In this document: positions 15,310-35,396 of the stretch, piece by piece
Numbering within the stretch: position 1 is the first letter of the stretch
Layout: every line of letters starts with the position of its first letter
NCBI GenBank assembly: GCA_017934525.1
Contig: JAGBJJ010000026.1
Span: forward strand, 1 to 36,033
Direction of reading: 5' to 3'
Source: Prevotella sp.
GTDB lineage: Bacteria > Bacteroidota > Bacteroidia > Bacteroidales > Bacteroidaceae
Length of the DNA stretch: 36,033 nucleotides
The notes under the pieces: model-generated
The model's database searches: none
What the model was told of the DNA's origin: nothing
Seen by the model: only the letters and a program-made list of their open reading frames with translations
Program-made: the position numbers and the translations under genes

Positions 15310-16794
15310 TTATTTCTTTTTGATTCGCTTGGTGGTGCCGATGGCTCCCGTCGGGCAGACCAGTCGGCAGAGGTGACAGCCTACGCACTTGGTACCGACG
15401 ATGCGGGGCTGACGGGTCGCGGTGTCGAAGGTGATGGCCTGATGGCCGCCGTCCATGCACGAGATGTAGCAGCGGCCGCAGCCGATGCACCACTCACGGT
15501 CTATCTTCGGGAAGACGATGGTCTCGCGGTTCAGGTGGTCGGGGTTCAGGAACTTCGGTAACTGCTCGCCCACCAACTGCTGCAACTCCGTGATGCTGCG
15601 CTTGCCCATGTAGCGCTGAAGTCCGAGCGTGAGGTCGTCGATGATGCGGTAGCCATACTGCATGACGGCAGTGCATACCTGCACGTTGCTGCAGCCCAGT
15701 TGGATGAACTCCAGTGCGTCGCGCCACGTCTCGATGCCGCCGATGCCGCTGAGTTCAAATTGAGAATTGATAATTGATAATTGACAATTGCTGCGCATCT
15801 GAGCCAGTTCCAAAACATGCCGAAGGGCAATAGGCCGCACGGCACGACCGGAATAGCCCGAGATGGTGCGCTGTCCGGCCACCTCGGCCTCGGCCATCAT
15901 CGTCACCGACTTGATGGTGTTGATGGCCGAGATAGCGTCGGCACCCGCCTCCACGCAGGCCGCGGCAGGCTCGGTGATATGCGTAATGTTGGGCGTCATC
16001 TTCGGGATGACGGGAATCTTCACCGCGCTCTTCACGCAGGCGGTATAGGTCTTCACCAGTTCCGGACTCTGGCCCACGTCGCTGCCCATGCCCTTATGCT
16101 TCATCTGCGGGCACGAGAAGTTCAGTTCCACGGCATCGCAGCCAGCCGCCTCGGCCATCTTCGCCAGATGGGCCCACTCCTCCTCGGTCTGTCCCATAAT
16201 GGAGGCGATGACTACCTTCGTGGGGTAGTCCTGCTTCAACCGCCGTAGGATGTCAAAGTCCATCTCCACGGGGTTCTCGCTCAACTGCTCCATGTTGCGG
16301 AAACCGTAGAAGTCGCCGTGGATGCCATTGTTGTGCATGGCATCGAAGCGGGGCGACACCTCACGGATTTCCTGCAGGCAGATGGTCTTGTAGAACACGC
16401 CCGCCCAGCCCGCATCGAAGGCGCGGGCCACCATCTCGTAGTTGGTGCACACCGCCGACGAGGCGAGGAAGAACGGGTTCTCGCACGGGATGCCGCAGAA
16501 GGTGATGGAAAGGTCTGGGTACGAATCGTCGGCAACGTCGTCGGGATGGATGCTGCGCACCAACTCCTCGATGTGGACGGGGCCGCCCGGATGGATGCAG
16601 GCCTGCTCCGCCCGCTCCAGGTCGGCATCGGTGCAGTCCTTCACCCAGCGCAGGGCGGGCTTGTGGTTGTCGAAACGGATGGCGCGGATGGCCCGTGCCG
16701 GGTCGCCCGTCGCGCAGGCCTTGGTGCAAGGGGCATCCTCGCACAACAGGCAGCGGCTGGCTTCTTCATAGATATTTAATTTCATAGACTTCAT
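15310..16794 (-). CDS. preA: PreA-type NAD-dependent dihydropyrimidine dehydrogenase subunit with extra N-terminal Fe-S domain
   Basis: A 494-residue protein. From about residue 93 it follows E. coli PreA closely: LSITFCGIPCENPFFLASS, then ELNFSCPQM, GSDVGQSPELVKTY, SGYSGRAVRPIALRHV and SGIGGIETW, and two [4Fe-4S] motifs at the end (CIGCGRCYISC and CVGCHLCRLVCP). PreA is the FMN/Fe-S subunit that reduces uracil and thymine with electrons supplied by PreT. Residues 1-90 are not part of normal PreA: EASRCLLCEDAPCTKAC resembles the Fe-S domain at the start of PreT, GltD and mammalian DPD. No PreT gene is in view. The loop before SGIGG is encoded by a short-tandem-repeat patch (15756-15790). The start at 16794 is not fixed by a clear ribosome-binding site; an ATG three codons later is possible. 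Confidence 0.88.
   Translation of the reverse strand: MKSMKLNIYEEASRCLLCEDAPCTKACATGDPARAIRAIRFDNHKPALRWVKDCTDADLERAEQACIHPGGPVHIEELVRSIHPDDVADDSYPDLSITFCGIPCENPFFLASSAVCTNYEMVARAFDAGWAGVFYKTICLQEIREVSPRFDAMHNNGIHGDFYGFRNMEQLSENPVEMDFDILRRLKQDYPTKVVIASIMGQTEEEWAHLAKMAEAAGCDAVELNFSCPQMKHKGMGSDVGQSPELVKTYTACVKSAVKIPVIPKMTPNITHITEPAAACVEAGADAISAINTIKSVTMMAEAEVAGQRTISGYSGRAVRPIALRHVLELAQMRSNCQLSIINSQFELSGIGGIETWRDALEFIQLGCSNVQVCTAVMQYGYRIIDDLTLGLQRYMGKRSITELQQLVGEQLPKFLNPDHLNRETIVFPKIDREWCIGCGRCYISCMDGGHQAITFDTATRQPRIVGTKCVGCHLCRLVCPTGAIGTTKRIKKK
15756..15790. repeat. heptamer-like tandem repeat patch inside preA
   Basis: Units AATTGAG, AATTGAT, AATTGAT and AATTGAC follow each other. On the coding strand the patch gives NCQLSIINSQFEL between QMRS and SGIGG. 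The same loop in E. coli PreA is about four residues shorter with unrelated sequence, so the patch seems to have replaced or extended a surface loop without breaking the frame. Confidence 0.75.
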
Positions 16795-17344: not shown

Positions 17345-17352
17345 CAAAGATA
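17345..17352 (-). promoter_or_regulatory. -7 box of array module 1
   Basis: The minus strand reads TATCTTTG then CAGGC, a TAnnTTTG match. It lies 59 bases before the ATG of the surface-protein remnant and 49 bases from the first TTTTG of array 1. Because the remnant, the 55-residue peptide and preA follow without a visible terminator, this promoter may now serve the preA unit. Confidence 0.55.
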
Positions 17353-17400: not shown

Positions 17401-17493
17401 TTTTGCTGATTTTGAAACAATTTTTGTAAATTTTGAGAGTCACGCCTCGCTCTTTTGTAAATTTTAAGAGTCCAATTGCAGTTTTTGAAAGTC
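17401..17493. repeat. 21-bp phased TTTTGARAGTC array, copy 1
   Basis: TTTTG/TTTTA motifs start at 17401, 17410, 17431, 17462 and 17483; the steps 17410-17431 and 17462-17483 are 21 bp. Motifs are TTTTGAAACAA, TTTTGAGAGTC, TTTTAAGAGTC and TTTTGAAAGTC. It lies upstream of a leftward TAnnTTTG box. Confidence 0.8.
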
Positions 17494-20775: not shown

Positions 20776-20831
20776 TGTTGCTTTGTATTTTTATTGTTTT
20801 AATTTCGTTTAGTCTTTGCGTATACTGCCTG

Positions 20832-20839
20832 CAAAGATA
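20832..20839 (-). promoter_or_regulatory. -7 box of array module 2
   Basis: The minus strand reads TATCTTTG then CAGGC, 57 bases before the ATG at 20775 and 48 bases from the first TTTTG of array 2. The surrounding ~150 bases are a near copy of module 1. Confidence 0.55.
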
Positions 20840-20886
20840 AACAAAATCCCCAAAACTGTCGCGCCCAAATCGTCCGCCACGAAAGA

Positions 20887-20948
20887 TTTTGCTGATTTTG
20901 AAACATTTTTTGTAAATTTTGAAAGTCCAATTGCAGATTTTGAGAGTC
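20887..20948. repeat. 21-bp phased TTTTGARAGTC array, copy 2
   Basis: TTTTG motifs start at 20887, 20896, 20917 and 20938; the last two steps are each exactly 21 bp. Motifs are TTTTGAAACAT, TTTTGAAAGTC and TTTTGAGAGTC. Confidence 0.8.
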
Positions 20949-20993
20949 AAAAATTATCCGCCGAGGCTCTCTTGTCAGCAAGAATCTCGGCGG
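20949..20993 (-). terminator. terminator after the ATPase remnant
   Basis: On the minus strand CCGCCGAG pairs with CTCGGCGG, with inner arms TCTTG/CAAGA, followed by ATAATTTTT. It begins six bases after the TAG at 21000. Confidence 0.7.
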
Positions 20994-21570: not shown

Positions 21571-23448
21571 TTAGAGATTCACCAAGAACGAGAGACCCAG
21601 CGTCCAGTAGTTCATGTGCTTGCGGGACTTGTACTCACGGGCATCCAGTCCGATACCGTCGGCATACTCGCCAGTAGAGGTCATGAGGGCGGCATCCGTC
21701 AGGAAGGCGGCGCCGCTGGTCATACCCTTCTGCATAAAGTGGTAGGGGTCATAGGTGGCGGTGAAATCCTTGCGGGTGTAGTCGTAGTCGCAGAAGATGC
21801 GCCACGAGAAGTTGGACTTATAGCGATAGGTGAGCGAAATGCCCGTGCCAAACGACGTGGACGACTTGGCGGAAATGGTGAGGTATTCCCAGTCGTCGGT
21901 CCATTTCTCACCTGTGTTGGTGGGATACTGCAAGTTGTCGAGCAGGATAGAAGGGTCGCCGGAAACGTCCTTGTGGCCGGGACGGTTGTCGAGCGTCAGG
22001 GTGTAGGGGATGTCTTTTACGTTGCCCTCGGCGTGACCGTCAATGTCCAGTTCCTGTGTGATGGAACGGCCGATGAGTGCCTTGGTACCCAAAGAGAAGC
22101 GAGAGCTGAGAGGCAGATTGAAGTAGACACCGACACTGCCCGTGAACTCAGTGATGTGGTCGCTCTTCACGATGCCGTAGCTGTCGGTGACGGGAGCGTT
22201 CTCACGCCATGCACTCTCGGAGTCGAGCCGGTAGCCCAGCTTGTTGAAGTAGGCCTGCTCGTTCTGTTCCGGCGTGCCGGTGTAGTCGCCAGGGAAGGCA
22301 CTCTGATAGTAGGGCTGCAGACCCTGCCAGGCATACAGGTTCTCGACGGCCACCGTGTTGGCAAAGTCGCCGAAGTCCTTGACCGACTGGGCGCGGACGC
22401 GCAAACGACCGCCCACGCCGACGTACTTATTAAAGAAGTAGGCACCCTCGGCATCTACCACCGTGGCGGCACGGAACTTGAGGCCCACCTTCTCGCCCAT
22501 GCTCTCGAACTCGAGGTTCTTGTTGCCCAGACCCACACCCATGGAGATGCTGAAGAACGAGGGCTTCTCGCCGTTCACCTCAAGGTCGTTGCGGAGCAGG
22601 CCCTTCCCCTTGAACAGCAGGTCGCAGAGGGCATAGCCCAACTCGGTGGACATGATACCGATGCCGGCACCCGACATCACATCGCTAATCCAGTGGCGGT
22701 TATTAAGCACGCGCATCACACCCGTAGCCGTAGCCACACCGTAGCCGGCCACCGACCACCAGGGCGAGCGCGTCAGTCCGTACTCCTTGTGGAGTAGCGA
22801 GGCACCGACGAAAGCGGTGGCAGTGTGCCCCGAGGGCCATGAGTTGGCGGTGCTTCCGTCAGGACGCATTTCCTTGGCGGTGTACTTGATGCCATTGACG
22901 AAGGCTGCCATGATGGCATACGACATGCCGGCACTGGCCAGCAGACGAGGCCAGTCGCTGCGGCCCTCGTAGCCGCCCAGCTTCAGTCCGACCACCATGG
23001 CGGGGCCGAAGAACTGGGTGTAGTCGTCGATGCCAGTCTTGAAGTCTGTCAGGAGCTGCGTGTTCTTCTTGCCGCCTTGCTCGGCCTTGGCATTGACGCG
23101 GAACATGGCCTTGTCGCCCTTGATAGCCCAGCCTGCCACGAACAGGGGGATGCCGACGAAGGTCAGGTCGTCCATGAATTTGTAGGGCTTGACACCAGGA
23201 TTGGTCTTCGACTTGAGGAAGTCGAAGTCGGGCTTCCACTGGTTGGCAGCTGTCGTAAGATTCATCGTGGAACTGGTTGACGGGTCTGTCATGTCAAGGA
23301 GAATGGAACTTGTCTCGGACATGTCTGTCAGCTCGGCCTTCATTTCGGGCACTTCCAGCGTGAGCGGCTTCATATCCAGATAATTGTCTGCATTGGCCTG
23401 AACCGTCAGGACAACGGCGAGTGTGGTTAAATAATGTCTGATATTCAT
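21571..23448 (-). CDS. PAP2-family phosphatase fused to a C-terminal outer-membrane-type beta domain
   Basis: A 625-residue protein from the ATG at 23448 (MNIRHYLTTLAVVLTVQANA, a signal peptide); eleven codons further upstream are open but lie in a repeat. The PAP2 active site is complete: KYTAKEMRPDG, then SWPSGHTATAF near residue 210 and RVLNNRHWISDVMSG near residue 255. From about residue 300 to the end the sequence alternates as in beta-barrels (FFSISMGVGLGNKN, VGVYFNLPLSSRFSLGTKAL, FGTGISLTYRYKSN) and closes with LSFLVNL, typical of outer membrane proteins. Expected chemistry: dephosphorylation of a lipid or phosphate ester. The fusion would place it at the outer membrane; lipid A is a possible but unproven substrate. 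It is last in the RND efflux unit, 60 bases after the TolC-like gene. Confidence 0.82.
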   Translation of the reverse strand: MNIRHYLTTLAVVLTVQANADNYLDMKPLTLEVPEMKAELTDMSETSSILLDMTDPSTSSTMNLTTAANQWKPDFDFLKSKTNPGVKPYKFMDDLTFVGIPLFVAGWAIKGDKAMFRVNAKAEQGGKKNTQLLTDFKTGIDDYTQFFGPAMVVGLKLGGYEGRSDWPRLLASAGMSYAIMAAFVNGIKYTAKEMRPDGSTANSWPSGHTATAFVGASLLHKEYGLTRSPWWSVAGYGVATATGVMRVLNNRHWISDVMSGAGIGIMSTELGYALCDLLFKGKGLLRNDLEVNGEKPSFFSISMGVGLGNKNLEFESMGEKVGLKFRAATVVDAEGAYFFNKYVGVGGRLRVRAQSVKDFGDFANTVAVENLYAWQGLQPYYQSAFPGDYTGTPEQNEQAYFNKLGYRLDSESAWRENAPVTDSYGIVKSDHITEFTGSVGVYFNLPLSSRFSLGTKALIGRSITQELDIDGHAEGNVKDIPYTLTLDNRPGHKDVSGDPSILLDNLQYPTNTGEKWTDDWEYLTISAKSSTSFGTGISLTYRYKSNFSWRIFCDYDYTRKDFTATYDPYHFMQKGMTSGAAFLTDAALMTSTGEYADGIGLDAREYKSRKHMNYWTLGLSFLVNL

Positions 23449-23465
23449 TGTGCTATATTTTTTAA

Positions 23466-23507
23466 TTAATTCATAACTCATAATTCATAACTCATAACTC
23501 ATAACTC
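23466..23507. repeat. CATAACT-type tandem repeat between TolC-like and PAP2 genes
   Basis: ATTCATAACTC, ATAATTC, ATAACTC, ATAACTC and ATAACTC follow in units of about 7-8 bases, filling most of the 59-base gap and touching the stop codon of the TolC-like gene. Confidence 0.75.
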
Positions 23508-24893
23508 TTAATTCATACCACCGCCGAGTGCGATGTAGAGGGCAATGACGGCCTCGGATGCTTTGTACATGTTCATGGCCTGGCTGAGCTGTGCGTTGAG
23601 CAGCGACTCCTGGGCCGTGAGCACCTCGATGTAGCTGGCCTTGCCATTATCCATCAGTTCGTGGGTACCTGTGTATGCCTCACGGAGCACTTGAACCTGA
23701 CGTTGGTAGTAGCTGTTTTTCTCACGGGCTGTCATGCAGTCGGCAATGGCCTCGTTCACCTCGTTACCGGCGTTGATGACCGTCTGGACGTACTTCTTCT
23801 GCATGTCCTCTTCGGTGAGTTTGGCTATCTTCTTGTTGGCAATCAGCTTGCCGCGGGCGAAGATGGGCTGCGTGAGCTGTGCTACGGCATTGAGCAGCAG
23901 CTTGCCCGGGTTGACGATGGCGATGCCTGCATCGTTGGTCCATCCGGCGGTACCGCTGAGCGTAATGCTGGGATAAAAGGCCGAACGGGCTGCCTGAGTA
24001 TTGTAGAAAGCCTCTTCCATGGCGTGGTTGGCCATGCGGATGTCGGGGCGGTTCTCCAGCATACGGGCTGGCACGCCGATTTGCAGAGCCTCACCCTTTG
24101 CAGAGAGGTTGGGGGTGAGTCTGCTGCGCTCTATGTGCTGTGGACTGACTGCCAGCAACTTGCAGATGGCATTCTCTACCGAACGGATGTTACGGCGTGT
24201 GTCGGCAATCTGTGTCTTCACGCTCAGGTAGGATGCCTCCATCTGGTTGACGGCGGTGCTGTATGCCTTGCCGTTCTCCCAAAGAGCCTGCTCGGTCTCA
24301 AGCGACTTGTTCCACAGACTGTCGGTCTGGTTGAGGATGTCCAGCTGGAGGTCAAGCACTTGCAGCATCAGGTACTGCTGGGCCGTAGTGGCAATGAGGT
24401 TGGAGCGTATGGCCTGCTGCTGCATCTGCGCCTGCATGACCACGGCCTTCGCCGCACGTTTCTGGTTGGTGATGGAGCCGAACACGTCGAGGTCTACCGA
24501 CAGTTGTAGCGGCAGGTTGTAGGTCTTTGAGGCTGGGCTCTTGTCGAAACTGGAGAGCGCGCCCTGAGAAGCGAAGAAGAGTGACGGCAAGTAGGCCATC
24601 TTGGCTGCCTTCAGCGATGCCTCGCTCTTCTCCACGGCGATGCGTGCGGAGTTGAGGTCGGTGTTGCTGGCCAGCACCTGCTCAATGAGCTGCTGTAGCA
24701 GCGGGTCGGTGAAAAACTCGCGCCAGGTCATCTGGGCCATTGACGTTTCACCAATGGCTGCCTTGACATCTTCGTTGGAGCCGAAGGCATCGGCGGGTGT
24801 CGGTGTCTCTTGCGCGTACTTATTATATATACCGCAGCCCGTGAGCATCAAAGTCACGGCTGCCAGTGTGATGATATTGCTTAGTCTTTTCAT
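23508..24893 (-). CDS. TolC/NodT-type outer membrane efflux lipoprotein
   Basis: A 461-residue protein. The signal peptide ends in a lipobox (VTLMLTGCGIYNKY). The body is two matching halves of long helices broken by short beta segments, as in outer membrane factors: TDLNSARIAVEKSEASLKAA, RNIRSVENAICKLL, NRPDIRMANHAMEEAFYNTQ, AARSAFYPSITLSG, and near the end KASYIEVLTAQESLLNAQLS. Such proteins form the trimeric outer-membrane channel of tripartite pumps. It starts 10 bases after the RND pump stop, so they are co-transcribed. 23 bases of the gene (24172-24194) are repeated exactly at 21497-21519. Confidence 0.92.
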   Translation of the reverse strand: MKRLSNIITLAAVTLMLTGCGIYNKYAQETPTPADAFGSNEDVKAAIGETSMAQMTWREFFTDPLLQQLIEQVLASNTDLNSARIAVEKSEASLKAAKMAYLPSLFFASQGALSSFDKSPASKTYNLPLQLSVDLDVFGSITNQKRAAKAVVMQAQMQQQAIRSNLIATTAQQYLMLQVLDLQLDILNQTDSLWNKSLETEQALWENGKAYSTAVNQMEASYLSVKTQIADTRRNIRSVENAICKLLAVSPQHIERSRLTPNLSAKGEALQIGVPARMLENRPDIRMANHAMEEAFYNTQAARSAFYPSITLSGTAGWTNDAGIAIVNPGKLLLNAVAQLTQPIFARGKLIANKKIAKLTEEDMQKKYVQTVINAGNEVNEAIADCMTAREKNSYYQRQVQVLREAYTGTHELMDNGKASYIEVLTAQESLLNAQLSQAMNMYKASEAVIALYIALGGGMN

Positions 24894-24903: not shown

Positions 24904-27900
24904 TTATTTCGTTACACCGTTATCCGTTATCTCGGCATTGGAGTTTTCTACTTTCATCTTCGGAGCCCCTTGGAAACGCTCATGCAGCTTCTGGAACACG
25001 ATGAAGAAGGCGGGAACGACGAAGAGCAGGGCCACGGTGCCGATGCTCATACCGCCGATAACGCCAAGGGCGAGGGCTCGGTTACCGTTGGCACCGGCTC
25101 CACCCTCGATGACGAGCGGTATCATACCGATAATCATCGTGGCTACCGTCATCAGGATAGGGCGCAGACGCTCCTTGCAAGCCTCGAAGGCTGCTTCCGT
25201 AATACTCAGGCCCTGGGCACGGCGCTCTGTGGCGAACTCGGTAATCAGAATGGCCGTCTTTGCCAACAGACCTATTAGCATGATGACACCCGTCTGCAGG
25301 TAGATGTTGTTGTCCATGCCAGGCAGTCCCTGCGTATAACCAAGGTAAGCAAAGACAAAGGCTCCCATCAGTCCGAACGGTACGCTGAAGAGCACGGCCC
25401 ACGGAGTGAACCATGAGTTGTACAGCGAGGCCAGGATGAGGTAAATCAGGATGGCACAGATGACGTAGATGAAGGCGGTGGCATTGGAACCGGCAGCCTC
25501 TTCAAGTTCGCGCGACATACCACTATACTCGTAGGCGGCGGTAGCTGGCATCTCCTCTTTGAACACCTCGGCGATGGCCTTGTGGGCATCACCCTCTGTG
25601 TAGCCGCTACCGGTTTGGATGTAGCAGGAGATACTCTGGAACAGGTTGAAGTGCTCAATGTTCGACGGACCGACAATCTCTTTCAGCGTGACGAATTCGG
25701 CAATAGGTGCCATTTTGCCGTTACCCACCTGCACGAAGATATTCTGCAGCGATGTCGGGTCGAGGCGATACTCGGGCGAGGCAGCAGCCATGATGCGATA
25801 GACCTTACCAAACTGATTGAAGTTGCCGATATACGCACCGCCGCAGAACGTACCGAGCGTATTGAGCACGTCGGCAGGCGACACACCGGCACGGTCGCAC
25901 TGGGCAGCATCGACATCGACCTGATATTTCGGGAAGCGCTCTGAGTAGGTCGACATAGCGGAGGCTATCTCCGGACGCTCAGACAGCTTAGCCAGGAAGT
26001 GTTCGGTTTGCTTGGCAAACTCCGACAGATTACCGTCGGTAGGATCCTCGACAACCAGAGAGACACTGTTGCTGTTACCATAGCCGGGAATCTGCGGCAT
26101 CTCAAAGGGAGACACCGTCACATTCTTGATGTCCTGACAGTCGAAGTAGAACCGGTACATGACGAGGGTCAGCAGGTGGTTCATGCCCGGGCGCTCCTCC
26201 CAGTTCTTCAGACGGACAACCAGTGTAGCGAAGTTGGAACCGGCACCAGAGAGCATACCGTAGCCACAGCATAGGGCGTAACTCTCCATCTCGGGAATCT
26301 TCTTCACCTTATCCTCCACCTGTTTCATAATCTCACGGGTCTGCTGTAGCGTGGTTCCTTCCGGTGCACTGAGGTCAACGAGGAACACGCCCTGGTCCTC
26401 CTGCGGTACCAGACCCGACGGCAGACTCTTCATGAAGAACACCAACAGCACGGCAGAAAGAGCCAGGAAGCTCCATGCCATGACAGGGCGCTTGATGAAT
26501 TTCTGGACGCTCTTGCTATACTTATTATAGATAGCATTATAGCTGACGGTGTAGGCTTTCTTTGTGTAGTAGGTAATACCCTTGCCCTCCTTCTTGCCTT
26601 CTGTCACTCGCATCATGATGGCGCAGAGCGCAGGGCACAGCGTCAGGGCGGAGACACACGACAGACCAACTGACGAGGCAATGGTCACACCGAACTGGGT
26701 GAAGAAGGTACCTGAAGTACCCGGCATGAAGGTCACGGGGATGAACACGGCCATGAATACCAAGGTACACGAGACTACGGCTACCGACACCTCGTTCATG
26801 GCCTGACGGGTGGCTTCGCGGGCATCGCTGATGCCACCCTCCATCTTGGCCATGACGGCCTCGACCACCACGATGGCGTCGTCGACTACCGTACCGATGG
26901 CCAGCACGAGGGCAAAGAGCGTCAGGATGTTGAGCGAGAAGCCTGCCAGCGAAACGATGGCAAAGGTGCCCAGCAGTGACACGATGATCGATATCGACGG
27001 GATGATGGTGGCCTTGAAGTTCTGCAGGAAAAAGAACACCACGAGCACCACGAGGATGATGGCGATGACCAGCGTCTCGACCACGTTGTGGATGGCAGCG
27101 AACAGGAAATCGTCGCTGGTCATCAGGGTGACGAACTCCAGTCCGGCAGGCATCGTTGCCTTCACTTCCTCAAACGTCTTGTTGATACGGGCATTCACCT
27201 CGGTAGCATTGGCACCCGGTGCTTGATATACCATGAACATGGCACCCGGCTTGTCCTGAATGTTTGAGGTGAAATTGTAGCTCATGGCACCAATCTTCAC
27301 TTCTGCCACGTCGCTCAAGTGCAGCATGCCGCCGCCACTGGTGCGTAGCACGATGTCGTTGAACTCCTCGACGGTCTTCAGTGTACCCTTGTACTGCATG
27401 GAGTACTGATAGGAGTTGCCCGACTGCTCGCCAAGAGAACCCACTGCCGACACGAAACTCTGTCCGCCGATGGCTGCAAAGATATCGTTAGGAGTCAGAC
27501 CGTACTGTGCCATCACGTCGGGCTTCAGCCAGAGGCGCAGGGCGTATGTGTTACCAAGGCTCTGCACGTTACCCACACCACTGATACGCATCAGACGTGG
27601 CTTGATATTGATGTCGACGTAGTTTGAGACGAAGTCCTCGTCATACTTGCCATCGACACTGCGCACAGCGAAAATCTGCAGAATGTTATTCTGGCGTTTC
27701 TCCACGGTTACGCCAATCTTGTTCACGTCGGCAGGCAGCAGGGCCTGTGCACGGGTCACACGGTTCTGCACGTTGACCGCCGCCATGTCGGGATCGACAC
27801 CTTGTTTGAAATACACACTGATTTCCACATCACCGTTCGATGAGGCTTTGGAGGTCATGTAGGCCATGTCCGTCACACCGTTGATGGCCTCTTCGAGCGG

Positions 27901-28092
27901 CTGGATGACTGACTTCATCACCGTGTTCTCGTCAGCACCGCTGTAGCTGGTGGTGACCATCACCGTGGGCGGTGCAATGTCGGGATACTGCTCCACTGGC
28001 AGCGTAGTCATCGAGATGTAGCCCACCAGTGCTATCACAATTGAGATGGCACACGCCATCACGTATTTATTGATAAAGATATTATTCTTCAT
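24904..28092 (-). CDS. RND-family (HAE1/AcrB-like) efflux pump, inner membrane subunit
   Basis: A 1,062-residue protein of normal AcrB length. The first helix follows the usual pattern (NNIFINKYVMACAISIVIAL) with LPVEQYPDIAPPTVMV after it. The proton-relay aspartates are present (AIGTVVDDAIVVVEAVM), as is the matching lysine (LIGLLAKTAILITEF). The porter domain motifs GVGNVQSLGNTYALRLWL and FVSAVGSLGEQSG are also seen. It exports toxic compounds using the proton gradient; the substrate cannot be predicted. Neighbours are the adaptor gene upstream and the TolC-like gene downstream. The 115-base gap to the adaptor gene holds a long inverted repeat, the only sizeable gap inside this pump unit. 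Confidence 0.95.
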   Translation of the reverse strand: MKNNIFINKYVMACAISIVIALVGYISMTTLPVEQYPDIAPPTVMVTTSYSGADENTVMKSVIQPLEEAINGVTDMAYMTSKASSNGDVEISVYFKQGVDPDMAAVNVQNRVTRAQALLPADVNKIGVTVEKRQNNILQIFAVRSVDGKYDEDFVSNYVDINIKPRLMRISGVGNVQSLGNTYALRLWLKPDVMAQYGLTPNDIFAAIGGQSFVSAVGSLGEQSGNSYQYSMQYKGTLKTVEEFNDIVLRTSGGGMLHLSDVAEVKIGAMSYNFTSNIQDKPGAMFMVYQAPGANATEVNARINKTFEEVKATMPAGLEFVTLMTSDDFLFAAIHNVVETLVIAIILVVLVVFFFLQNFKATIIPSISIIVSLLGTFAIVSLAGFSLNILTLFALVLAIGTVVDDAIVVVEAVMAKMEGGISDAREATRQAMNEVSVAVVSCTLVFMAVFIPVTFMPGTSGTFFTQFGVTIASSVGLSCVSALTLCPALCAIMMRVTEGKKEGKGITYYTKKAYTVSYNAIYNKYSKSVQKFIKRPVMAWSFLALSAVLLVFFMKSLPSGLVPQEDQGVFLVDLSAPEGTTLQQTREIMKQVEDKVKKIPEMESYALCCGYGMLSGAGSNFATLVVRLKNWEERPGMNHLLTLVMYRFYFDCQDIKNVTVSPFEMPQIPGYGNSNSVSLVVEDPTDGNLSEFAKQTEHFLAKLSERPEIASAMSTYSERFPKYQVDVDAAQCDRAGVSPADVLNTLGTFCGGAYIGNFNQFGKVYRIMAAASPEYRLDPTSLQNIFVQVGNGKMAPIAEFVTLKEIVGPSNIEHFNLFQSISCYIQTGSGYTEGDAHKAIAEVFKEEMPATAAYEYSGMSRELEEAAGSNATAFIYVICAILIYLILASLYNSWFTPWAVLFSVPFGLMGAFVFAYLGYTQGLPGMDNNIYLQTGVIMLIGLLAKTAILITEFATERRAQGLSITEAAFEACKERLRPILMTVATMIIGMIPLVIEGGAGANGNRALALGVIGGMSIGTVALLFVVPAFFIVFQKLHERFQGAPKMKVENSNAEITDNGVTK

Positions 28093-28100
28093 ATTAATTC

Positions 28101-28213
28101 AAATTAGTAATTAGTAATGAGTAATTAGTAATTATGATTTGACCTGCTACGGTTTGTCATCTGCGAAGAGCATTGCAAGGTAATCATAATTACTCATTAC
28201 TAATTACTCATTT
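28101..28213. repeat. long inverted repeat made of TAATTACTCATTAC units, between MFP and RND genes
   Basis: The left arm (28101-28139) and the right arm (28182-28213) are each built of AATTAGT/AATGAGT-type heptamers. They are reverse complements over about 32 bp with three mismatches, around a 42-base unique loop. The right arm overlaps the last codons of the adaptor gene. Confidence 0.8.
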
Positions 28214-29320
28214 CTCATTAAACAAAACCTTCTGTCCCTCGGTCACATTATTTGCACCGGTGGTCACAATCTTGTCGCCAACGCTCAGGCCACTGGTGAC
28301 GATGAAGTCCTTACCGTTACCGGTATCTTCCGTTGTCACGTCGACGGCGGTAGCCGTGCTGTCGGCTTTCACCTTATACACAAGAGACTTGTCCTGCAGG
28401 CGCACGACGGCGTTCTGTGGGATGACGATCAAGTCTTTCTCGGCAAACGACATGACGACCGAACCCTGTATGCCGGAGTGCAGAACGCCTTCTGGATTGG
28501 GGAACGACACCTTGGCGGTCAACGAGCCTGTTGCCGCATTGACAACACCCGTCAGGCTGACAACATGTCCCTTGTGAGGATACTCTGTACCATTCTTCAT
28601 CACAAACGTGGCTTCGGGCAGGGTGGCAATAAACTTCTCTTTATCGGTAGCATTCACACCTTCCTTTACCATGGCCTCGACGATGGCCTCCGTTACTGAG
28701 AACTCGGCATACATCGTCGTATTGCCGCTGAGCATGGTGAGCTGCATGCCGGGCGATACCTGGTCACCGGTATGCACGGAAATCTCGCCGATGACGCCTG
28801 ATACGGTAGCTGTGATCGTACAGAATCCTAAGTTCACCTTCGCGCTGTTCACCGACGCACGGGCCTGGGCTACTGCAGCCTGGGCCTGCTTGTAGGCGTT
28901 TTCCGAGTTGCTGAGCATGTAACTGCTCACAATCTTCTTCTCAAACAGGTTCTTGTTCGACTCATACTCCAGTTTGGCTGAGTTCTCCTGTGCCAGGGCA
29001 GCCTGCAGGTTGGCCTGTGCAGCCTCCAGTTCCAGTTGGGCGTTGCGGGAGTCGATGATGAAGAGCGTCTGCCCCTTCTTCACTTGCTGACCTTCTGCCA
29101 CGCAAATCTTCATCAGCTGACCGCTGACCTGCGGTGTAACGGTCACGTCGTTCTGACCTTTCATTCTGGCACTGAACCTGTAAGGCAGTTCAATGTCTGA
29201 CTTCTTTACTGTCATGGTTTCAAACGACGACTGCGTCTCTTTGGGCATGTCAATGTTACACGCCACCAGCCCGACCATCATGCCGAGCATCAAAGCACAT
29301 TTTGTTGATTTCATCTTCAT
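28208..29320 (-). CDS. periplasmic adaptor (membrane fusion protein) of the RND pump
   Basis: A 370-residue lipoprotein (signal peptide ending GLVACNIDMPK). The order is that of AcrA-type adaptors: a barrel strand region (VTPQVSGQLMKICV), lipoyl motif (EGQQVKKGQTLFIID), a long coiled hairpin (residues ~90-170, QANLQAALAQENSAKLEYES), the second lipoyl half (ATVSGVIGEISVHTGDQVSP) and beta domains ending GDKIVTTGANNVTEGQKVLF. It links pump and outer membrane channel. It starts 33 bases after the membrane protein gene at 29354 and precedes the RND gene. Its last codons lie in the right arm of the inverted repeat. Confidence 0.92.
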   Translation of the reverse strand: MKMKSTKCALMLGMMVGLVACNIDMPKETQSSFETMTVKKSDIELPYRFSARMKGQNDVTVTPQVSGQLMKICVAEGQQVKKGQTLFIIDSRNAQLELEAAQANLQAALAQENSAKLEYESNKNLFEKKIVSSYMLSNSENAYKQAQAAVAQARASVNSAKVNLGFCTITATVSGVIGEISVHTGDQVSPGMQLTMLSGNTTMYAEFSVTEAIVEAMVKEGVNATDKEKFIATLPEATFVMKNGTEYPHKGHVVSLTGVVNAATGSLTAKVSFPNPEGVLHSGIQGSVVMSFAEKDLIVIPQNAVVRLQDKSLVYKVKADSTATAVDVTTEDTGNGKDFIVTSGLSVGDKIVTTGANNVTEGQKVLFNEK

Positions 29321-29353
29321 TGTTTTAGCTTTATTTATTTTAATCTTTAATGT

Positions 29354-29980
29354 TCAATCTTCCGTTTCCGTCACGAAACAGGCCACGAGACCGTAGGTAA
29401 TGGCGGGGCGAATCCAGATTTCGGTGAGCAAATAATTAGTGTATTCGTCGATAGCCTCAAAATACATAATGTCCAATTGATAGAGCGTAGCTATGAGCGC
29501 ATCAATGGCAAAGATAAGCCACAGGTTACGTTTGCTATAGCTTTTCCATTCCCTGCGGGCATAGAAGTATGTCAGCGTACAGAGGAACAGCACTGACAGC
29601 GTGAAACAGACTGAGCGCAGGACGAGGTTGGCCATGGGCGGGGAGAAGAGGATGTCGCGCAGCAGTACCGTCATACCCAGCGAGATGGAACACCAGTAGT
29701 TGAACTGCTGAGTGTTAATGAGCGGTGAATTGAAAAAGTACATCCAAATCATCACCAAGCAGGCGATGTAGAACAAATTGAGCACAAGCTCGGGCCAGGC
29801 GTTGGCCAGTCCGAAATGATATACGCCGTAAAGCATTACGCCGATGGACAGTGTGCCGCTGACGGCAGTAATCAAGATGTCGGCAACTTTGGCATTTTTC
29901 TTAAATCTAGTCTTCATATTATTATTGCACTTGGAATTCCTATAAACCTTTAGTGTTCGTCTACTTTGCTTATTTTTCAT
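29354..29980 (-). CDS. multi-pass membrane protein of unknown function
   Basis: A protein of 208 residues if it starts at the ATG at 29980, which overlaps the upstream stop as ATGA and follows AAGGAAGA; an internal ATG at 29917 would give 187 residues (MKTRFKKNAKVADIL). Five or six membrane segments are visible, for example ADILITAVSGTLSIGVMLYG, LVLNLFYIACLVMIWMYFF, LRSVCFTLSVLFLCTLTYFY and LWLIFAIDALIATLY. I do not recognise a family. It sits between the sensor-only protein and the adaptor gene, in the same direction and with short spacing, so it is probably the second gene of the efflux unit; a sensing or signalling role with its neighbour is inference. Confidence 0.7.
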   Translation of the reverse strand: MKNKQSRRTLKVYRNSKCNNNMKTRFKKNAKVADILITAVSGTLSIGVMLYGVYHFGLANAWPELVLNLFYIACLVMIWMYFFNSPLINTQQFNYWCSISLGMTVLLRDILFSPPMANLVLRSVCFTLSVLFLCTLTYFYARREWKSYSKRNLWLIFAIDALIATLYQLDIMYFEAIDEYTNYLLTEIWIRPAITYGLVACFVTETED

Positions 29981-30681
29981 TCTTCCTTCAGCTCCTGCAA
30001 CGTGTCTACGCGCCAGACGAGGAAGGCGATGATGACGAATGTGTTCACCTGCGACAGATACTCCGTCACGAGCGCACCACCATTGGTGGAGTAGGCCACG
30101 TGGACGAACAGGATGAAGGCCAGTAGCAACAGACTCTGCCACACCTCCTTGCGCTCCAGGTCGGCGTAGTTGTCGAGCAGCCAGCGTCCGTACTGCCGCA
30201 CGGCCCGAACGTAGTACACGAGGAAAACCACGCCCATCACGGCCATGTACAACTCCACAGCGAGTTCGAACACGTCGCTGCGCAGGACGATACAAATCAA
30301 GGCCAGCACGCCTACTGGTGCTACTGCCGCCCACACGGGCCAGAGCGGTCGCCGCCGGTCCTGCAGCATCCGCAGCAGTACGCACATCATCAGCGGCACG
30401 AACGTCAGACGGTCGAGCGTGATGGCCACGATGTTGCGCACCAGCCGATCGTCGGTCAGGAACTGCTGACCCAGCACAACCCACCACACGTGACTCATGA
30501 ACACAGCCACCATGAACGCCGCCGTCCATTCCCGTAGCAACGTGCTCGGCACCACTTCGTCACCCGCCACGACGTTGCCTCGCCCGAAAAGCAGGTATGC
30601 TGCTGCCAACAGCGCAAACCATGCCGCTGCGCCATATAGCATCAGGAAAAATGCATCACTCAATCCTTGGTATTCGTACAT
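29977..30681 (-). CDS. membrane sensor-like protein: paralogue of the adjacent AraC-type regulator without its DNA-binding domain
   Basis: A 234-residue protein from the ATG at 30681 (MYEYQGLSDAFFLMLYGAAA). A longer frame exists but would cross the promoter, so it is rejected. Six or seven membrane segments fill the protein. It matches residues ~1-240 of the divergent regulator at 30923: MLQDRRRPLWP, RQYGRWLLDNYADLERKEVW and LVWRVDTLQEL have close counterparts at the same places. It then stops (LKEE), lacking the ~150-residue linker and helix-turn-helix part. A box TAACTTTG lies 30 bases before its ATG, and it is the first gene of the efflux unit. A modulating or partner role toward the full-length regulator is inference. 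Confidence 0.8.
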   Translation of the reverse strand: MYEYQGLSDAFFLMLYGAAAWFALLAAAYLLFGRGNVVAGDEVVPSTLLREWTAAFMVAVFMSHVWWVVLGQQFLTDDRLVRNIVAITLDRLTFVPLMMCVLLRMLQDRRRPLWPVWAAVAPVGVLALICIVLRSDVFELAVELYMAVMGVVFLVYYVRAVRQYGRWLLDNYADLERKEVWQSLLLLAFILFVHVAYSTNGGALVTEYLSQVNTFVIIAFLVWRVDTLQELKEE

Positions 30682-30710
30682 AATTAGTCTTTTTAGCCAA
30701 AAATTTGCCC

Positions 30711-30718
30711 CAAAGTTA
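30711..30718 (-). promoter_or_regulatory. -7 box of array module 3 (efflux unit promoter)
   Basis: Minus strand TAACTTTG followed by GGGGC, 30 bases before the ATG at 30681 and 48 bases from the first TTTTG of array 3. The -33 region is not obvious. Confidence 0.6.
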
Positions 30719-30765
30719 CGAAAAAAACTTTGAACCACCACATCCAAATCGGTCACCATGAAAGA

Positions 30766-30898
30766 TTTTGTAGATTTTGAGACTATTTTTGTAAATTTTG
30801 AGAGTCAGCCCCGATTTTTGCAGATTTTGAGAGTCGTTTTGCAGATTTTGAGAGTCGTTTTGCAGATTTTGAGAGTCGTTTTGCAATTTTTGAAAATT
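30766..30898. repeat. 21-bp phased TTTTGAGAGTC array, copy 3, between divergent promoters
   Basis: TTTTG motifs start at 30766, 30775, 30796, 30825, 30846, 30867 and 30888. All steps from 30775 on are exactly 21 bp except one of 29. The central unit GCAGATTTTGAGAGTCGTT (plus TT) is repeated nearly perfectly three times. T-runs recur about every 9 and 12 bp alternately, near the helical repeat, so the DNA may also be curved. The array fills the gap between the sensor gene and the AraC-type regulator gene. Confidence 0.88.
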
Positions 30899-30913
30899 AA
30901 AATTGTAACTTTG
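30880..30913 (+). promoter_or_regulatory. promoter of the AraC-type membrane regulator
   Basis: TAACTTTG at 30906-30913 is a full TAnnTTTG match; a TTTG lies 22 bp upstream inside the array. The ATG follows only nine bases after the box, so the transcript would have almost no leader. Confidence 0.6.
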
Positions 30914-30922
30914 CATGCTGAA

Positions 30923-32083
30923 ATGGATACGCTCGGATATACATCACCACAGTTTACGCTGTTCTTGTTACTCTACGGCGGAGCAGCAGTGGTGTCAGTC
31001 GTTCTGTGTCTCTACCTGCTGCTGAGCAAGGGCAACGCCATCGCGCCCGCCATCACGCCGCCAGTGAGACTGCGCCGGTGGGCTGCCGCAATCTTCGGCA
31101 TGTCTGCCTTGGGCCATCTGTGGTGGTACTGTTTATACATACTTTCCTATGACATCAATTCCTGGGCGTACGTGGTGTGCGTGGTACTTGACTGCGTCTT
31201 GACGCTGACCACCGTCTTCGGCACGATGCTTTCCATGCTTCAGGACCGCCGCCGACCGCTGTGGCCCTTTATTGTGGCCATGATACCCGTCGTAATTCTT
31301 GGAGGGCTACAGATAGTGAGGCCCAGCACCGACTTCCTAAGCCCCGCCCTCGTCTATACGCTGGCCATCTACGTGTTCTTTTCTATATATATGGCAGTGG
31401 CTATCAGACAATACGGGCGGTGGCTGCGCGACAACTACGCCGACCTGGAGCACAAGGAGGTATGGCTGAGCCATACACTGCTCATCCTCTTCCTGCTGAT
31501 GCTGGCCATCTATGGGTTCACTTCCGACGGCCCGTCGCTCTTCCTGCTCCGTATCGCCGACTTCGTAATGTTCGGCCTGCTGCTGTGGCGCGTGGAGACA
31601 TTGCCACAGTTGGACGCGTCGGACACATCGGACGCTTTGGATGCATCGGACGCATTGCAAGAGATAGACTCCCCGGAGCAAGAGCCGCAGGTCGTTGCTT
31701 CTCCCCCCAGCCAGCAACCCATGGTTCCGTCCAATATCGGTCAACTGCTGGAAGAGAACTGCGAGAAGACAGGGCTTTACCTGCTGAACGACCTGACTTT
31801 GGTCCAACTCTCAGCTGCCATCGGTGTCAACCGCACGTATCTCAGCCAATATTTCTCCAGTCTGGGCATGAACTACAATGCCTACATCAACGACCTCCGC
31901 GTCAACCACTTCATCCGTCTCTACGAGGGGGCCATCGCTGCCAAGCAGCCCGTCACCGCCCAGCAGCTGGCGCAGGAATGCGGCTACCGCAGTTACAGCA
32001 CCTTCAGCCTCGCTTTCAAACAGCGTATGGACCTGAGTGTTACAGTCTGGATGCACGACGTGGCCCAGGACATGGCTGAGTAA
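30923..32083 (+). CDS. AraC-family transcriptional regulator with N-terminal multi-pass membrane sensor
   Basis: A 386-residue protein from the ATG at 30923 (MDTLGYTSPQFTLFLLLYGG); the open frame upstream consists of the 21-bp repeats and is not taken as coding. Residues 1-235 hold six or seven membrane segments. Residues ~236-280 are a low-complexity acidic linker made by 9-base repeats (LDASDTSDALDASDAL). The last ~110 residues are an AraC-type domain: LTLVQLSAAIGVNRTYLSQY, then YNAYINDLRVNHFI and LAQECGYRSYSTFSLAF. It is transcribed away from the sensor-only paralogue and the RND efflux unit, and the phased repeats lie between the two promoters. Control of that unit and of itself is therefore likely but unproven. 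A strong terminator follows. Confidence 0.88.
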   Translation: MDTLGYTSPQFTLFLLLYGGAAVVSVVLCLYLLLSKGNAIAPAITPPVRLRRWAAAIFGMSALGHLWWYCLYILSYDINSWAYVVCVVLDCVLTLTTVFGTMLSMLQDRRRPLWPFIVAMIPVVILGGLQIVRPSTDFLSPALVYTLAIYVFFSIYMAVAIRQYGRWLRDNYADLEHKEVWLSHTLLILFLLMLAIYGFTSDGPSLFLLRIADFVMFGLLLWRVETLPQLDASDTSDALDASDALQEIDSPEQEPQVVASPPSQQPMVPSNIGQLLEENCEKTGLYLLNDLTLVQLSAAIGVNRTYLSQYFSSLGMNYNAYINDLRVNHFIRLYEGAIAAKQPVTAQQLAQECGYRSYSTFSLAFKQRMDLSVTVWMHDVAQDMAE

Positions 32084-32383: not shown

Positions 32384-33877
32384 ATGGAATTGGAGAAAAA
32401 TAAGGCCGTAAAAGGGCAAAATTTGGCTTCTAACCCCACGCCGAAAGGCAGTCGAGGTGAGAAATGTTTGGCAAAATTCACATCTTCCAACGGGAGTGTT
32501 TTCGGTTCATTGATTCTTGACATACGCAAGGCTGGCGATTATAGCCAGCCCTTACCTGTCGCAGTCAGGATTGCCCATGAGGGTAAGAAGGCTTTTCTCA
32601 GACTTGGCGAGAAATACACAATGGATGAGTGGATTCAACTCTGCGATTATGAAAAGACAGGGCGAAGAATCCAACTGACAGAACGAAATGAACTGAAATC
32701 GTTGATGGATAAGATCAAAGACTTGACCAATCAACTTATCAGCGAAGGTACTTTCTCTATCAAGCGGCTTCAGGACCGTTATCAAGGAAAGAAGGATGAC
32801 ACGACGAGCATTTACCAGATCTGGGATGAATACCTTCAGGAGAAAATTGATAGTGGCAAGGCTGGTACTGCAAGAGTAGGCAAAGATGTCAAGAACAGGT
32901 TTGTCAAAGACAATGGTGAGCACGTGGAATTTAGCGACATCGTCAGTTCGTTCATACAGAATTGGACAGCAGCGATGAAGAAAGACGAACTGAGTGTGAC
33001 CTATATTGGCATCGTATTGCGCACATTCCGTACTATTGTCAATATCGCTATCAATCGGAATTTGATAAACGGCAACACCAAGGACATGTTTAAGGATTCT
33101 GGCTACAACAAGAAGGCAAGCCGCAAACACGAATTCCTTGATGTGGCAACCATGAAACAACTGTATGACTTCTGGGAGAAGGACGAGGCAAAGGATGAGC
33201 ACGGCAAAGAGTTGCTTCCACCAAAGGCGAAATATGCTCTATTTCGAGATCTTGGGCTGTTTCTCTTTATGTATCTCGGTGACGGTCAGAATCTGGCAGA
33301 CACGTTGCGTTTGGAATATGACGGCTGGTACTTTGCTACTCACGGTAAGCAACTACGATTTCTCCGTCATAAGACGAGAGAGCGTAATGAGGATGCCAGC
33401 GAGGTCATCTTTCCCATTACGCCTGAAATCAAGAAGATACTCGATAAATATGCCAACGAACCCAAACAAGGACAACGTGTTTTTCCCATCATGAGCAAGG
33501 AGATTACTCCCGATAAAGAGATTTGGATCATTCAGCGTTACAACAAATATATCCGCAAGCACATGGAGATAGTCTCAAAGTTGCTGGGATTGGAACAAGT
33601 GCCTACCCCAACATGGGCACGACATAGCTTTGCAACGAATCTGAACAATTCTGGTCGCGTACCTTATAAATATATAAGTGACAGCATGGGACATAGCAGC
33701 AGTGGGGACATCACGTCAAACTATATAGGAACATACCCATTGGAGAAGATGCTGGAATACAATGCCTATCTTCTCAAAGAGAGTAAGCCTGCTAATAAAA
33801 AGGCAGAACTCCTCGAATTATTAAGAAGCATGAGTGCAAAGGAACGTAAGGCACTCATGAAGGAAGCAGAAAAGTAA
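32384..33877 (+). CDS. tyrosine-type site-specific recombinase (integrase)
   Basis: A 497-residue protein. It has an N-terminal arm-type region, a SAM-like core-binding domain (residues ~140-240, YQIWDEYLQEKIDSGKAGTA) and a catalytic domain. Visible catalytic elements are the beta-hairpin lysine (FLRHKTRERN), the second arginine (TWARHSFATNL), the histidine (SMGHSSSGD) and the tyrosine (TSNYIGTY). The usual box-I arginine is not at its normal place (YLGDGQNLADTLRLEYDG), and the HxxR histidine is a Thr; such variants are found in Bacteroidetes integrases, so I do not call it inactive. It stands about 200 bases from the tRNA attachment site, as expected for the enzyme that inserts and removes the element. 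Base composition is clearly more AT-rich than to the left. Confidence 0.92.
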   Translation: MELEKNKAVKGQNLASNPTPKGSRGEKCLAKFTSSNGSVFGSLILDIRKAGDYSQPLPVAVRIAHEGKKAFLRLGEKYTMDEWIQLCDYEKTGRRIQLTERNELKSLMDKIKDLTNQLISEGTFSIKRLQDRYQGKKDDTTSIYQIWDEYLQEKIDSGKAGTARVGKDVKNRFVKDNGEHVEFSDIVSSFIQNWTAAMKKDELSVTYIGIVLRTFRTIVNIAINRNLINGNTKDMFKDSGYNKKASRKHEFLDVATMKQLYDFWEKDEAKDEHGKELLPPKAKYALFRDLGLFLFMYLGDGQNLADTLRLEYDGWYFATHGKQLRFLRHKTRERNEDASEVIFPITPEIKKILDKYANEPKQGQRVFPIMSKEITPDKEIWIIQRYNKYIRKHMEIVSKLLGLEQVPTPTWARHSFATNLNNSGRVPYKYISDSMGHSSSGDITSNYIGTYPLEKMLEYNAYLLKESKPANKKAELLELLRSMSAKERKALMKEAEK

Positions 33878-33932
33878 GTGTTAATTTCGGCTATTTTTTG
33901 AGTGTAGCGAGCATAATACGACAATAATTGTG

Positions 33933-33940
33933 TAATTTTG
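33933..33940 (+). promoter_or_regulatory. -7 box upstream of the AlbA_2/ATPase gene
   Basis: TAATTTTG followed by CAGCAG, 31 bases before the ATG at 33972. The sequence around it resembles the integrase promoter (TTTGCAGCAG). No good -33 is seen. Confidence 0.5.
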
Positions 33941-33971
33941 CAGCAGAAAAGGCAACGTAATATAATAAGGT

Positions 33972-35396
33972 ATGAAGAAAGATGAGCTAAAGAACAAGAT
34001 ACGCTGTGGCGAGACGAGCCGAGTGCAGTTTAAGCAACAGTTCACCACACAGAAGGAGATTGCTGCCGAAATGGTGGCCTTTGCCAACTGTGAAGGTGGA
34101 GAATTGTTGTTTGGAGTGAAAGACAAGACTGGCGAGATTCTTGGTCTTGACTACGATTCCATTCAGCAGACAAGTCGCGAACTGGGCAACACTGCCAACG
34201 AACAGGTACGCCCAACCATCTACATCCAGACAGACGTTGTGGACTTAGATGGAAAAATGATTCTGGTGGCTACCGTGCAAAGAGGGCGTAATAAACCCTA
34301 CAAAGACTTGGCTGGTCACATCTGGGTGAAGCAAGGTGCTGACAAACGTCGGGTGACAGAGAACAGCGAACTGTTAAGCCTCTTTCAAGACTCAGGAGAA
34401 TACCACGCTGACGAAGCCAGTGTGATAGATACGTCAGTGAGAGACATTGACACGTTGGCACTTGACCGTTTTTTCCAGAATGTCTACGGAAAACCTATGA
34501 CAGAGTTTGATGTGCCGCAAGAACAGTTGTTGCACAACCTGCATATTACGGACTCGGAAGGGAGACTGACTACGGCAGGTCTGTTGTTCTTTGGTCAGCG
34601 TCCACAACAGTTCAAACCCATGTTCGTTATCAAGGCCGTCTGGTTCTATGGGAATAGCATCGCAGGAACAGAATATCGTGACAGCCGTGATATTGAAGGC
34701 ACCGTGCCGGAAATGTTCGAGCAGGCCATGATGTGGCTGAAGTCGTGCCTTCGCCGAACACAGAACGGGCAGTCGTTTAACTCTATCGGACAGTTGGAGA
34801 TTCCTGAAACCGTGTTGGAAGAGCTGCTTCAGAACGCTCTGGTACATATTGACCTGCTGAAAACGGCTGCTATCCGCTTGATGGTGTTCGATGACAGAGT
34901 GGAGATAGTGAACCCTGGTTGCGTAATGGGCGGTCATACGATAGACGAGGTGAAACTGGGCAATTCGTTTGCCCGTAACCCATTGATGGCTAACTTCTGT
35001 GCCAAGACCATGCCTTACCGTGGTTTAGGTTCAGGCATCCCACGTGTATTGGCTGAAGACAGCCGCGTGGAATTTATAGACAGCAAGGAGGGGAACCAGT
35101 TTACAGTGCGTATAAGCCGTCCACTTACTGCCACAGAAGCAGGGAGTAATATCGATTCGGCAGTAAGTAATGACGAAAAGGCAGTAAGTAAGCAGGGAGT
35201 AGCAGTAAGTAAAGAACAGATGCTTCTTGCCTTCTGTGTAGAACCAAAGTCGCTGTCTGAAATCTGCAAGCATCTGGGACTGAAGGACAGGTATAAAGTT
35301 AAGAAAAGGTATATTGACCCACTTCTAAACAAGTCACTTCGCATGACAGAACCAGAATCGCCCAACAGTCCCACTCAGAAGTATGTAACCATATAA
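33972..35396 (+). CDS. Schlafen AlbA_2-domain protein with HATPase-type domain and winged-helix end
   Basis: A 474-residue protein. Residues ~1-125 are an AlbA_2 domain (TSRVQFKQQF, MVAFANCEGGELLFGVKD). Residues ~255-390 form a GHKL/HATPase_c_4-like domain (VLEELLQNALVHIDLLKTAA, FDDRVEIVNPGC, YRGLGSGIPRVL). The last ~65 residues look like a winged helix (MLLAFCVEPKSLSEICKHLG). A linker in between is built of three 21-base repeats of GCAGTAAGTAA giving AVSNDEK-AVSKQGV-AVSKEQM. Proteins of this kind, often called RecG-like or putative transcriptional regulators, are common on mobile elements; a regulatory or defence-type role is inference. It follows the integrase by ~95 bases with its own possible promoter. 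Confidence 0.85.
   Translation: MKKDELKNKIRCGETSRVQFKQQFTTQKEIAAEMVAFANCEGGELLFGVKDKTGEILGLDYDSIQQTSRELGNTANEQVRPTIYIQTDVVDLDGKMILVATVQRGRNKPYKDLAGHIWVKQGADKRRVTENSELLSLFQDSGEYHADEASVIDTSVRDIDTLALDRFFQNVYGKPMTEFDVPQEQLLHNLHITDSEGRLTTAGLLFFGQRPQQFKPMFVIKAVWFYGNSIAGTEYRDSRDIEGTVPEMFEQAMMWLKSCLRRTQNGQSFNSIGQLEIPETVLEELLQNALVHIDLLKTAAIRLMVFDDRVEIVNPGCVMGGHTIDEVKLGNSFARNPLMANFCAKTMPYRGLGSGIPRVLAEDSRVEFIDSKEGNQFTVRISRPLTATEAGSNIDSAVSNDEKAVSKQGVAVSKEQMLLAFCVEPKSLSEICKHLGLKDRYKVKKRYIDPLLNKSLRMTEPESPNSPTQKYVTI

Follow-up and report, generated by a model that had tools for sequence, protein, structure and literature searches.

What reads the phased repeat that separates the gene of a membrane AraC-type protein from a leftward set of efflux genes in this Prevotella genome? 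The original prediction, that the repeat is an operator field on one face of the DNA read by the adjacent regulator, was followed up in the window, by which we mean the whole analyzed stretch of 36,033 nucleotides (the 36 kb contig C87 of a 2.6 Mb genome that is 76.5% complete), and in related genomes. Four results favor it: repeat and regulator are linked, units follow one another at 21 bp, promoters lie at a constant distance, and the repeat co-varies with the second HTH (HTH2) of the regulator. We consider it highly likely that the array is a multi-half-site operator of the adjacent membrane AraC regulator, which would activate the leftward operon and probably control its own promoter as well. 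The repeated DNA is, in other words, very probably a row of predicted landing sites for the neighboring protein, and the same predicted arrangement, with sites and protein changing in step, recurs in rumen Prevotella and relatives.

Six units of the type TTTTG-NNN-ATTTTGARAGTC occupy positions 30766-30898 in successive steps of 21, 29, 21, 21, and 21 bp (Table 1). The motif starts reported beforehand (30775, 30796, 30825, 30846, 30867, and 30888) and the steps between them are all as written, the complete unit (TTTTGCAGATTTTGAGAGTC, 20 bases) beginning nine bases ahead of each such start. The pattern stands well above chance: with at most two mismatches ATTTTGAGAGTC has 11 matches in the window against 2.3 expected, the longer unit pattern has 11 against 0.64 expected, none of 100 shuffles reaches 11 in either case, and TRF scores the array at 143 with a period of 21. 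The T-runs, described earlier as averaging 10.5 bp, number two per 21-bp unit and have this mean by arithmetic, their actual spacing alternating between 9 and 12. The TAACTTTG boxes noticed alongside do bracket the array and point outwards (30711-30718 on the minus strand and 30906-30913 on the plus strand), but they are Bacteroidetes promoter boxes, known as -7 boxes, and not parts of the array, which is placed upstream of both. TAnnTTTG is given as the Bacteroidetes promoter consensus in PMC6414381.

Table 1. Coordinates of the operator units, promoter boxes, and genes discussed in the text
Feature	Position	Strand	Remark
-7 promoter box (TAACTTTG), leftward operon	30711..30718	-	47 bp gap to first unit
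Canonical operator pair, units 30766-30785 and 30787-30806	30766..30806	+	21-bp step
Three identical extra units, 30816-30835, 30837-30856, and 30858-30877	30816..30877	+	21-bp steps; 29 bp after second unit of the pair
Sixth unit, degenerate	30879..30898	+	
-7 promoter box (TAACTTTG) of regulator	30906..30913	+	28 bp past last perfect unit; also 28 in L156
Membrane AraC regulator, 386 aa	30923..32083	+	Hydrophobic N-terminal region ~1-235, AraC HTH 296-376 (Pfam, hydropathy)
HTH-less paralogue of the regulator's membrane domain, operon gene 1	29977..30681	-	E 2.4e-40 to regulator
187-aa membrane protein, operon gene 2	29354..29917	-	Four hydrophobic segments; recurs in L156, L157, and L199
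RND membrane-fusion protein (HlyD_D23)	28208..29320	-	Pfam
RND transporter (ACR_tran)	24904..28092	-	Pfam
Outer-membrane efflux protein (OEP)	23508..24893	-	Pfam
PAP2 phosphatase-like protein	21571..23481	-	Pfam
-7 box, second putative target	17345..17352	-	48 bp gap
Second cluster, pair 17401-17441, then units at 17453 and 17474	17401..17493	+	31-bp step, then 21
-7 box, third putative target	20832..20839	-	47 bp gap
Third cluster, pair 20887-20927 and unit 20929-20948	20887..20948	+	All steps 21 bp

The regulator ends in an AraC-type HTH (HTH_18, 43.2 bits with a cut-off of 33.6; HTH_AraC, 31.8 with a cut-off of 26.6), and its start codon at 30923 agrees with loci L155 and L156. A Pfam scan of the protein up to E 1 returned DNA-binding families (HTH, MarR) alone, the membrane domain matching no family. 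Counted by hydropathy only, six hydrophobic segments exceed the cut-off in the regulator and seven in its HTH-less paralogue, the family average being about seven. By this measure the protein is a putative membrane one-component regulator in which the DNA-binding domain is fused to predicted transmembrane segments. Homologues with a best E of 1e-39 or below (counted from the table of hits) are present in 45 of 150 congeners, often several per genome; a looser E of 0.001 raises this to 115 of 150, many of the added proteins being other members of the AraC group. A wider family sample contains a homologue at E 1e-40 in 19 of 201 genomes and 7 of 30 genera. The best 80 of 551 confirmed relatives come from Prevotella and other Bacteroidales, many of them titled as ruminant stomach samples, and include the isolate Prevotella ruminicola KHT3 (L199).

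Arrays next to homologues of the regulator were sought in related genomes, as the original prediction had proposed, and repeat and regulator proved to be linked family-wide. With one mismatch allowed, the unit gave 33 matches in 16 of 150 congeneric genomes (seven of these matches being to the window's own genome) and the reversed pattern none; a two-unit pattern with a 20-bp step, which misses the window's own pair, was found in 9 of the 150 genomes, again with no match in the reversed control. All 16 motif genomes fall among the 45 that have a close regulator homologue (hypergeometric P 5e-10). A motif-blind test (direct-repeat score 14) pointed the same way, 21 bp being the best direct-repeat step within 170 bp downstream of 26 of 79 full-length regulators. 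This step came out best at 2 of 69 control places lying 600 bp beyond, and in 1 of 395 dinucleotide shuffles. On the upstream side of the regulators, the 21-bp signal was weak (4 of 79 vs. 2 of 74 control places).

A unit-based set was then assembled from 78 of these regulators, 82 from named genomes and the window's own, making 161, or 139 after those at least 90% identical were dropped; pairs were scored by the conserved core plus agreement between units, with no hand selection. L103, a 752-aa frame, is included in the motif-blind test and the first co-variation run and excluded from the 139-regulator analysis onwards. A two-unit direct repeat lies beside 79 of the 139 non-redundant regulators (71 downstream, 7 upstream, and 1 upstream inverted), and 60 have no pair at the threshold used. 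The step is 21 bp in 56 of the 79 pairs, 20 bp in 15 and 22 bp in 8, a peak across the family where half-sites had been predicted to lie about 21 bp apart. Downstream pairs in motif orientation accompany 71 of 138 regulators; in the opposite orientation the figure is 9 of 138, and control places yield 3 in 379 and shuffles 1 in 690. Among 15 other AraC relatives from the same genus, none has a pair downstream in motif orientation, and 3 of 60 combinations of region and orientation contain one.

The usual layout, seen in 71 of the 79 with a pair, is regulator, operator, promoter, and target in a single direction; the window, L156, L160, L180, and L199 are among the loci with the operator upstream of the regulator. 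A variant unit containing TTGCATTAGCTGA or a close form, in steps of 20-22 bp or similar, also stands upstream of the regulator at L077, L083, L153, L160, and L225 and is perhaps another specificity class; L077 and L153 carry TTTTGCATTAGCTGA or a unit near it.

A second spacing emerged from a scan of steps over 138 regions, with counts of 12, 56, and 9 at 20, 21, and 22 bp, of 2, 7, and 4 at 29, 30, and 31 bp, and of 5, 0, and 5 at 40, 41, and 42 bp, the corresponding sums in 254 control regions being 2, 0, and 2. A looser unit count, which had no control alongside, gave steps of 30 bp 21 times and of 29 bp 7 times. This lower family peak at 29-31 bp accommodates the 29-bp step of the window and the 31-bp step of its 17-kb cluster as instances of a second spacing, which exceeds the first by about one helical turn. 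The steps had been reported as 21 bp but for one of 29; the values are correct, but the 29 is no mere exception and belongs to this recurrent spacing.

Aligned matches from congeners mostly comprise two units in a row with a CAAAGNTA-like box to their left, that is, a -7 box reading away from the array. Assuming a 21-bp step, the distance from first unit to box is 45-48 bp at 21 of 25 sites outside the window's own genome, the exceptions being L011 (no box), L015 (78 bp, a third unit having been picked), L024 (71 bp), and L027 (68 bp). These 25 were taken from 26 such sites, L031 being left out for an array identical to that of L015. The regulator gene is within the stretch at 10 of the 25, and 13 of the other 15 show the 45-48 bp gap. 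In the unit-based set a strict -7 box occurs within 110 bp of 41 of the 71 downstream pairs and is missing from 30, whereas 10 of 509 control stretches of 110 bp contain one. The gap from pair to box is 46 bp in 2 cases, 47 bp in 21 and 48 bp in 15, so that 38 of 41 lie at 46-48 bp, with three further away; arrays in related genomes are in this respect non-random relative to promoters, as an operator role had been expected to entail. In the window, gaps to leftward -7 boxes are 47 bp for the main array, 48 bp at 17 kb, and 47 bp at 21 kb, and the leftward gap is 47 or 48 bp at all five divergent loci (the window, L156, L160, L180, which has two boxes, and L199).

A place upstream of the -33 region is typical of class I activators. 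The fixed upstream distance puts the pair in the position of a class I activator site, activation itself being predicted. Towards the regulator the geometry varies: its own -7 box is 28 bp from the last matched unit both in the window and in L156, but 50, 50, and 71 bp away in L160, L180, and L199, and a fixed site at this promoter is therefore not general. Control of the regulator's own promoter, the other half of what had been proposed, is plausible from geometry only: the gap shared with L156 favors it, but the three longer gaps do not.

The first half of the unit is nearly constant and the second half differs between loci while being mostly alike within a locus (variants include TGAAAC/TGAGAG, CGTGAC, TGCCAC, GTCCAG, GGTAAC, and others). 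A first run used 40 partly hand-selected pairs and ranked 298 protein columns according to their mutual information with operator positions 11-16, the five highest all lying in HTH2; L151, L118, L127, L077, L082, L130, and L153 had been removed by hand for register or simple repeats, and upstream matches in reading orientation were retained for L138 and L150 alone. An automatic run on the 79 pairs ranked columns 355, 363, and 359 (window numbering) highest of 294 variable columns, all in HTH2 and four residues apart, with columns 281 and 37, outside HTH2, in fourth and fifth place.

The variable half follows HTH2 beyond overall relatedness. In a partial Mantel test with the membrane domain and the rest of the C-terminus held constant, r was 0.669 (p 0.001, 999 permutations), compared with -0.056 (p 0.69) for HTH1 and 0.023 (p 0.33) for the membrane domain given HTH2. 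Taken separately, the two data sets gave 0.505 and 0.724, a split that offers only a partial safeguard, since the results of that first run had guided the choice of HTH2 columns; a test restricted to regulators with S at 359 gave 0.533. The 5' half of the unit is weakly related to HTH2 (0.217, p 0.001) and has no significant relation to HTH1 (0.099, p 0.083); a strict assignment of one HTH to one half therefore does not follow.

We propose one DNA-binding domain per 20-bp unit. The nearly constant first HTH would read the conserved TTTTGC...ATT half and the second HTH the variable TGARAG half, the latter assignment being backed by the co-variation, and the 21-bp steps would align the proteins on one DNA face. 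From the family's canonical place upstream of the -33 region, the pair at 30766-30806 would activate an operon comprising the HTH-less paralogue, the 187-aa membrane protein, and probably the RND efflux genes. The extra units reach up to the regulator's own promoter and would probably set the regulator level, through activation or feedback, and the promoters at 17345 and 20832 are probably driven by the same regulator. It is conceivable, if rather doubtful, that the regulator reads its operator while in the membrane, with phased half-sites drawing the promoter to a patch of regulators, the operon's own HTH-less 7TM product joining in as a partner that does not bind and can be tuned, and the count of extra units, which slippage could alter, setting the feedback gain. 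Were this so, the system would offer a readable protein-DNA code, HTH2 residues 355, 359, and 363 against about six operator bases, in dozens of parallel pairs.

An unlikely variant of the proposal is that the adjacent regulator binds as a repressor, the occupied array between two promoters shutting both. The last perfect unit is near enough to the regulator's -7 box, at 28 bp, for a bound protein to cover the -33 region; against this, 46-48 bp separate the conserved pair from the -7 box, a place upstream of the -33 region, and regulators of the family show a weak 21-bp signal on their upstream side. Still less probable is reading by another AraC-type protein, for example an HTCS, to which the neighboring regulator would be incidental. 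The regulator is present in all 16 motif genomes and its HTH2 is tracked by the variable half beyond relatedness, although motifs deduced for HTCS in Bacteroides also include direct repeats with 20-21 bp steps, according to PMC3878776.

Two further readings were rejected. The array could be a functionless tandem repeat or a MITE-like mobile repeat that came to lie between promoters by chance, for its three identical copies look like the product of recent slippage and the copies at 17.4 and 20.9 kb are in similar, probably duplicated, surroundings. Repeat sequences differ by locus, yet step and promoter distance are constant, and the reversed pattern finds nothing in 150 genomes, so that we give this very little credence. 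A coding function deserves the least of all: 21 bp is seven codons, and a frame open from 30758 to 32083 runs through the array (as LQILRVV repeats) into the regulator, but a -7 box intervenes between array and start codon, the M at 30923 is also where L155 and L156 start, the frame through the array region of L199 stops before the regulator, and the repeat is downstream of the regulator in 71 of the 79 relatives with a pair.

Under the preferred reading, an operator of the adjacent regulator, the predicted control of the efflux genes is likely, going by gene order. The operon at L156 starts as in the window (HTH-less paralogue, 187-aa-type protein, membrane-fusion protein, and RND, where the stretch ends), L157 has the same order up to the membrane-fusion protein, where the contig ends, and L199 has the first two operon genes in common with the window. 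The regulator at L156 is ~70% identical to the window's, and its array is likewise divergent, as is that of L199. The gaps between the leftward genes of the window contain no strict minus-strand -7 box, which fits a single operon without proving it; a near-match, GCAAGGTA, is present near 28175, between the membrane-fusion and RND genes.

For 55 of the 71 targets the gene that follows the downstream operator was scanned, the other 16 having no first gene inside the stretch, and at Pfam E 1e-5 these first genes include amidohydrolases (9), HlyD-type membrane-fusion proteins of the RND type (5), alpha/beta hydrolases (5), Na/H exchangers (4), PAP2 proteins (3), and kinase-type ATPases (3). Judged by N-termini, the HTH-less paralogue comes first in 8 of the 55, and L155, L156, L157, and L199 are among the loci with it; its start resembles that of MYEHQGL-type full-length regulators. 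The 187-aa protein has a weak Pfam match to the SID-1 RNA channel (E 0.0012, below cut-off), which may be a sign of a CREST-like membrane fold. Seven-base tandem arrays occur in the efflux gene gaps and elsewhere (28102-28134, 28189-28220, 23467-23517, 29339-29361, and 15758-15790), and two of them, at 28102 and 28189, seem to be mutually inverted copies from which a long hairpin could arise in the gap separating the membrane-fusion gene from the RND gene.

AraC binds direct half-sites 21 bp apart at araI1-araI2 and tolerates an extra helical turn; the half-site spacing is the same here, and the tolerance resembles the 29-31 bp steps. AraC is soluble and has an arabinose-binding domain, in place of which a membrane domain stands here, and our pair is further upstream and, unlike that at ara, oppositely oriented to the target promoter. 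ToxR and CadC are membrane-integrated one-component regulators with one TM helix and a winged HTH; they too join membrane segment(s) and a DNA-binding domain in one polypeptide, whereas the present family has six to seven hydrophobic segments and an AraC HTH. Comparative genomics of Bacteroides HTCS yielded direct repeats of 16+5, 12+9, or 14+6 bp, according to Ravcheev et al. (2013; PMC3878776), so that on this source the architecture of the array, an AraC-type HTH with direct repeats several of which have 20-21 bp steps, is of a known kind, deduced in both cases by comparative genomics. HTCS differ in having a periplasmic sensor, kinase, and receiver, none of which Pfam detects up to E 1 in the 386-aa regulator; the present arrays, moreover, comprise as many as six units, have a further step of 29-31 bp, and accompany different target genes. 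A search of open-licence PMC papers with a few terms returned no paper on this regulator family or array. For a large membrane AraC family of Prevotella and its relatives among the Bacteroidales, the present analysis puts forward a candidate operator, the geometry of its promoters, and candidate residues for specificity. Sequence allows the regulators of this family to be matched with their DNA sites and targets (efflux pumps, antiporters, amidohydrolases, and hydrolases), and it becomes testable how an integral membrane protein reaches its promoter.

Two more clusters in the window, at 17401-17493 and 20887-20948, had escaped notice. Allowing up to three mismatches, the genome contains nine matches to the 20-base unit, all on the plus strand and within the window (17422-17472, 20908-20948, and the main array), and none to its reversed control. 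Each of the added clusters precedes leftward frames, with GLUG and InlB-type repeats, that seem disrupted further along. The short core GATTTTGARAGTC, with one mismatch, has 13 genome matches and its reversed control 1; five of the 13 are on other contigs (C30:7842, C33:25039, C34:63, C38:41462, and C99:12662), and that at C34:63, being at a contig end, may represent a truncated operator. Downstream of the 21-kb cluster, over 18549-20950, are surface-protein genes that have GLUG and InlB-type repeats and apparently broken frames, and a 42-bp tandem repeat of 3.9 copies occupies 1525-1689. To the right of the regulator, 32384-35396 encodes an AlbA_2/Fic-like-C protein and an integrase of phage type; a mobile element may have its border here.
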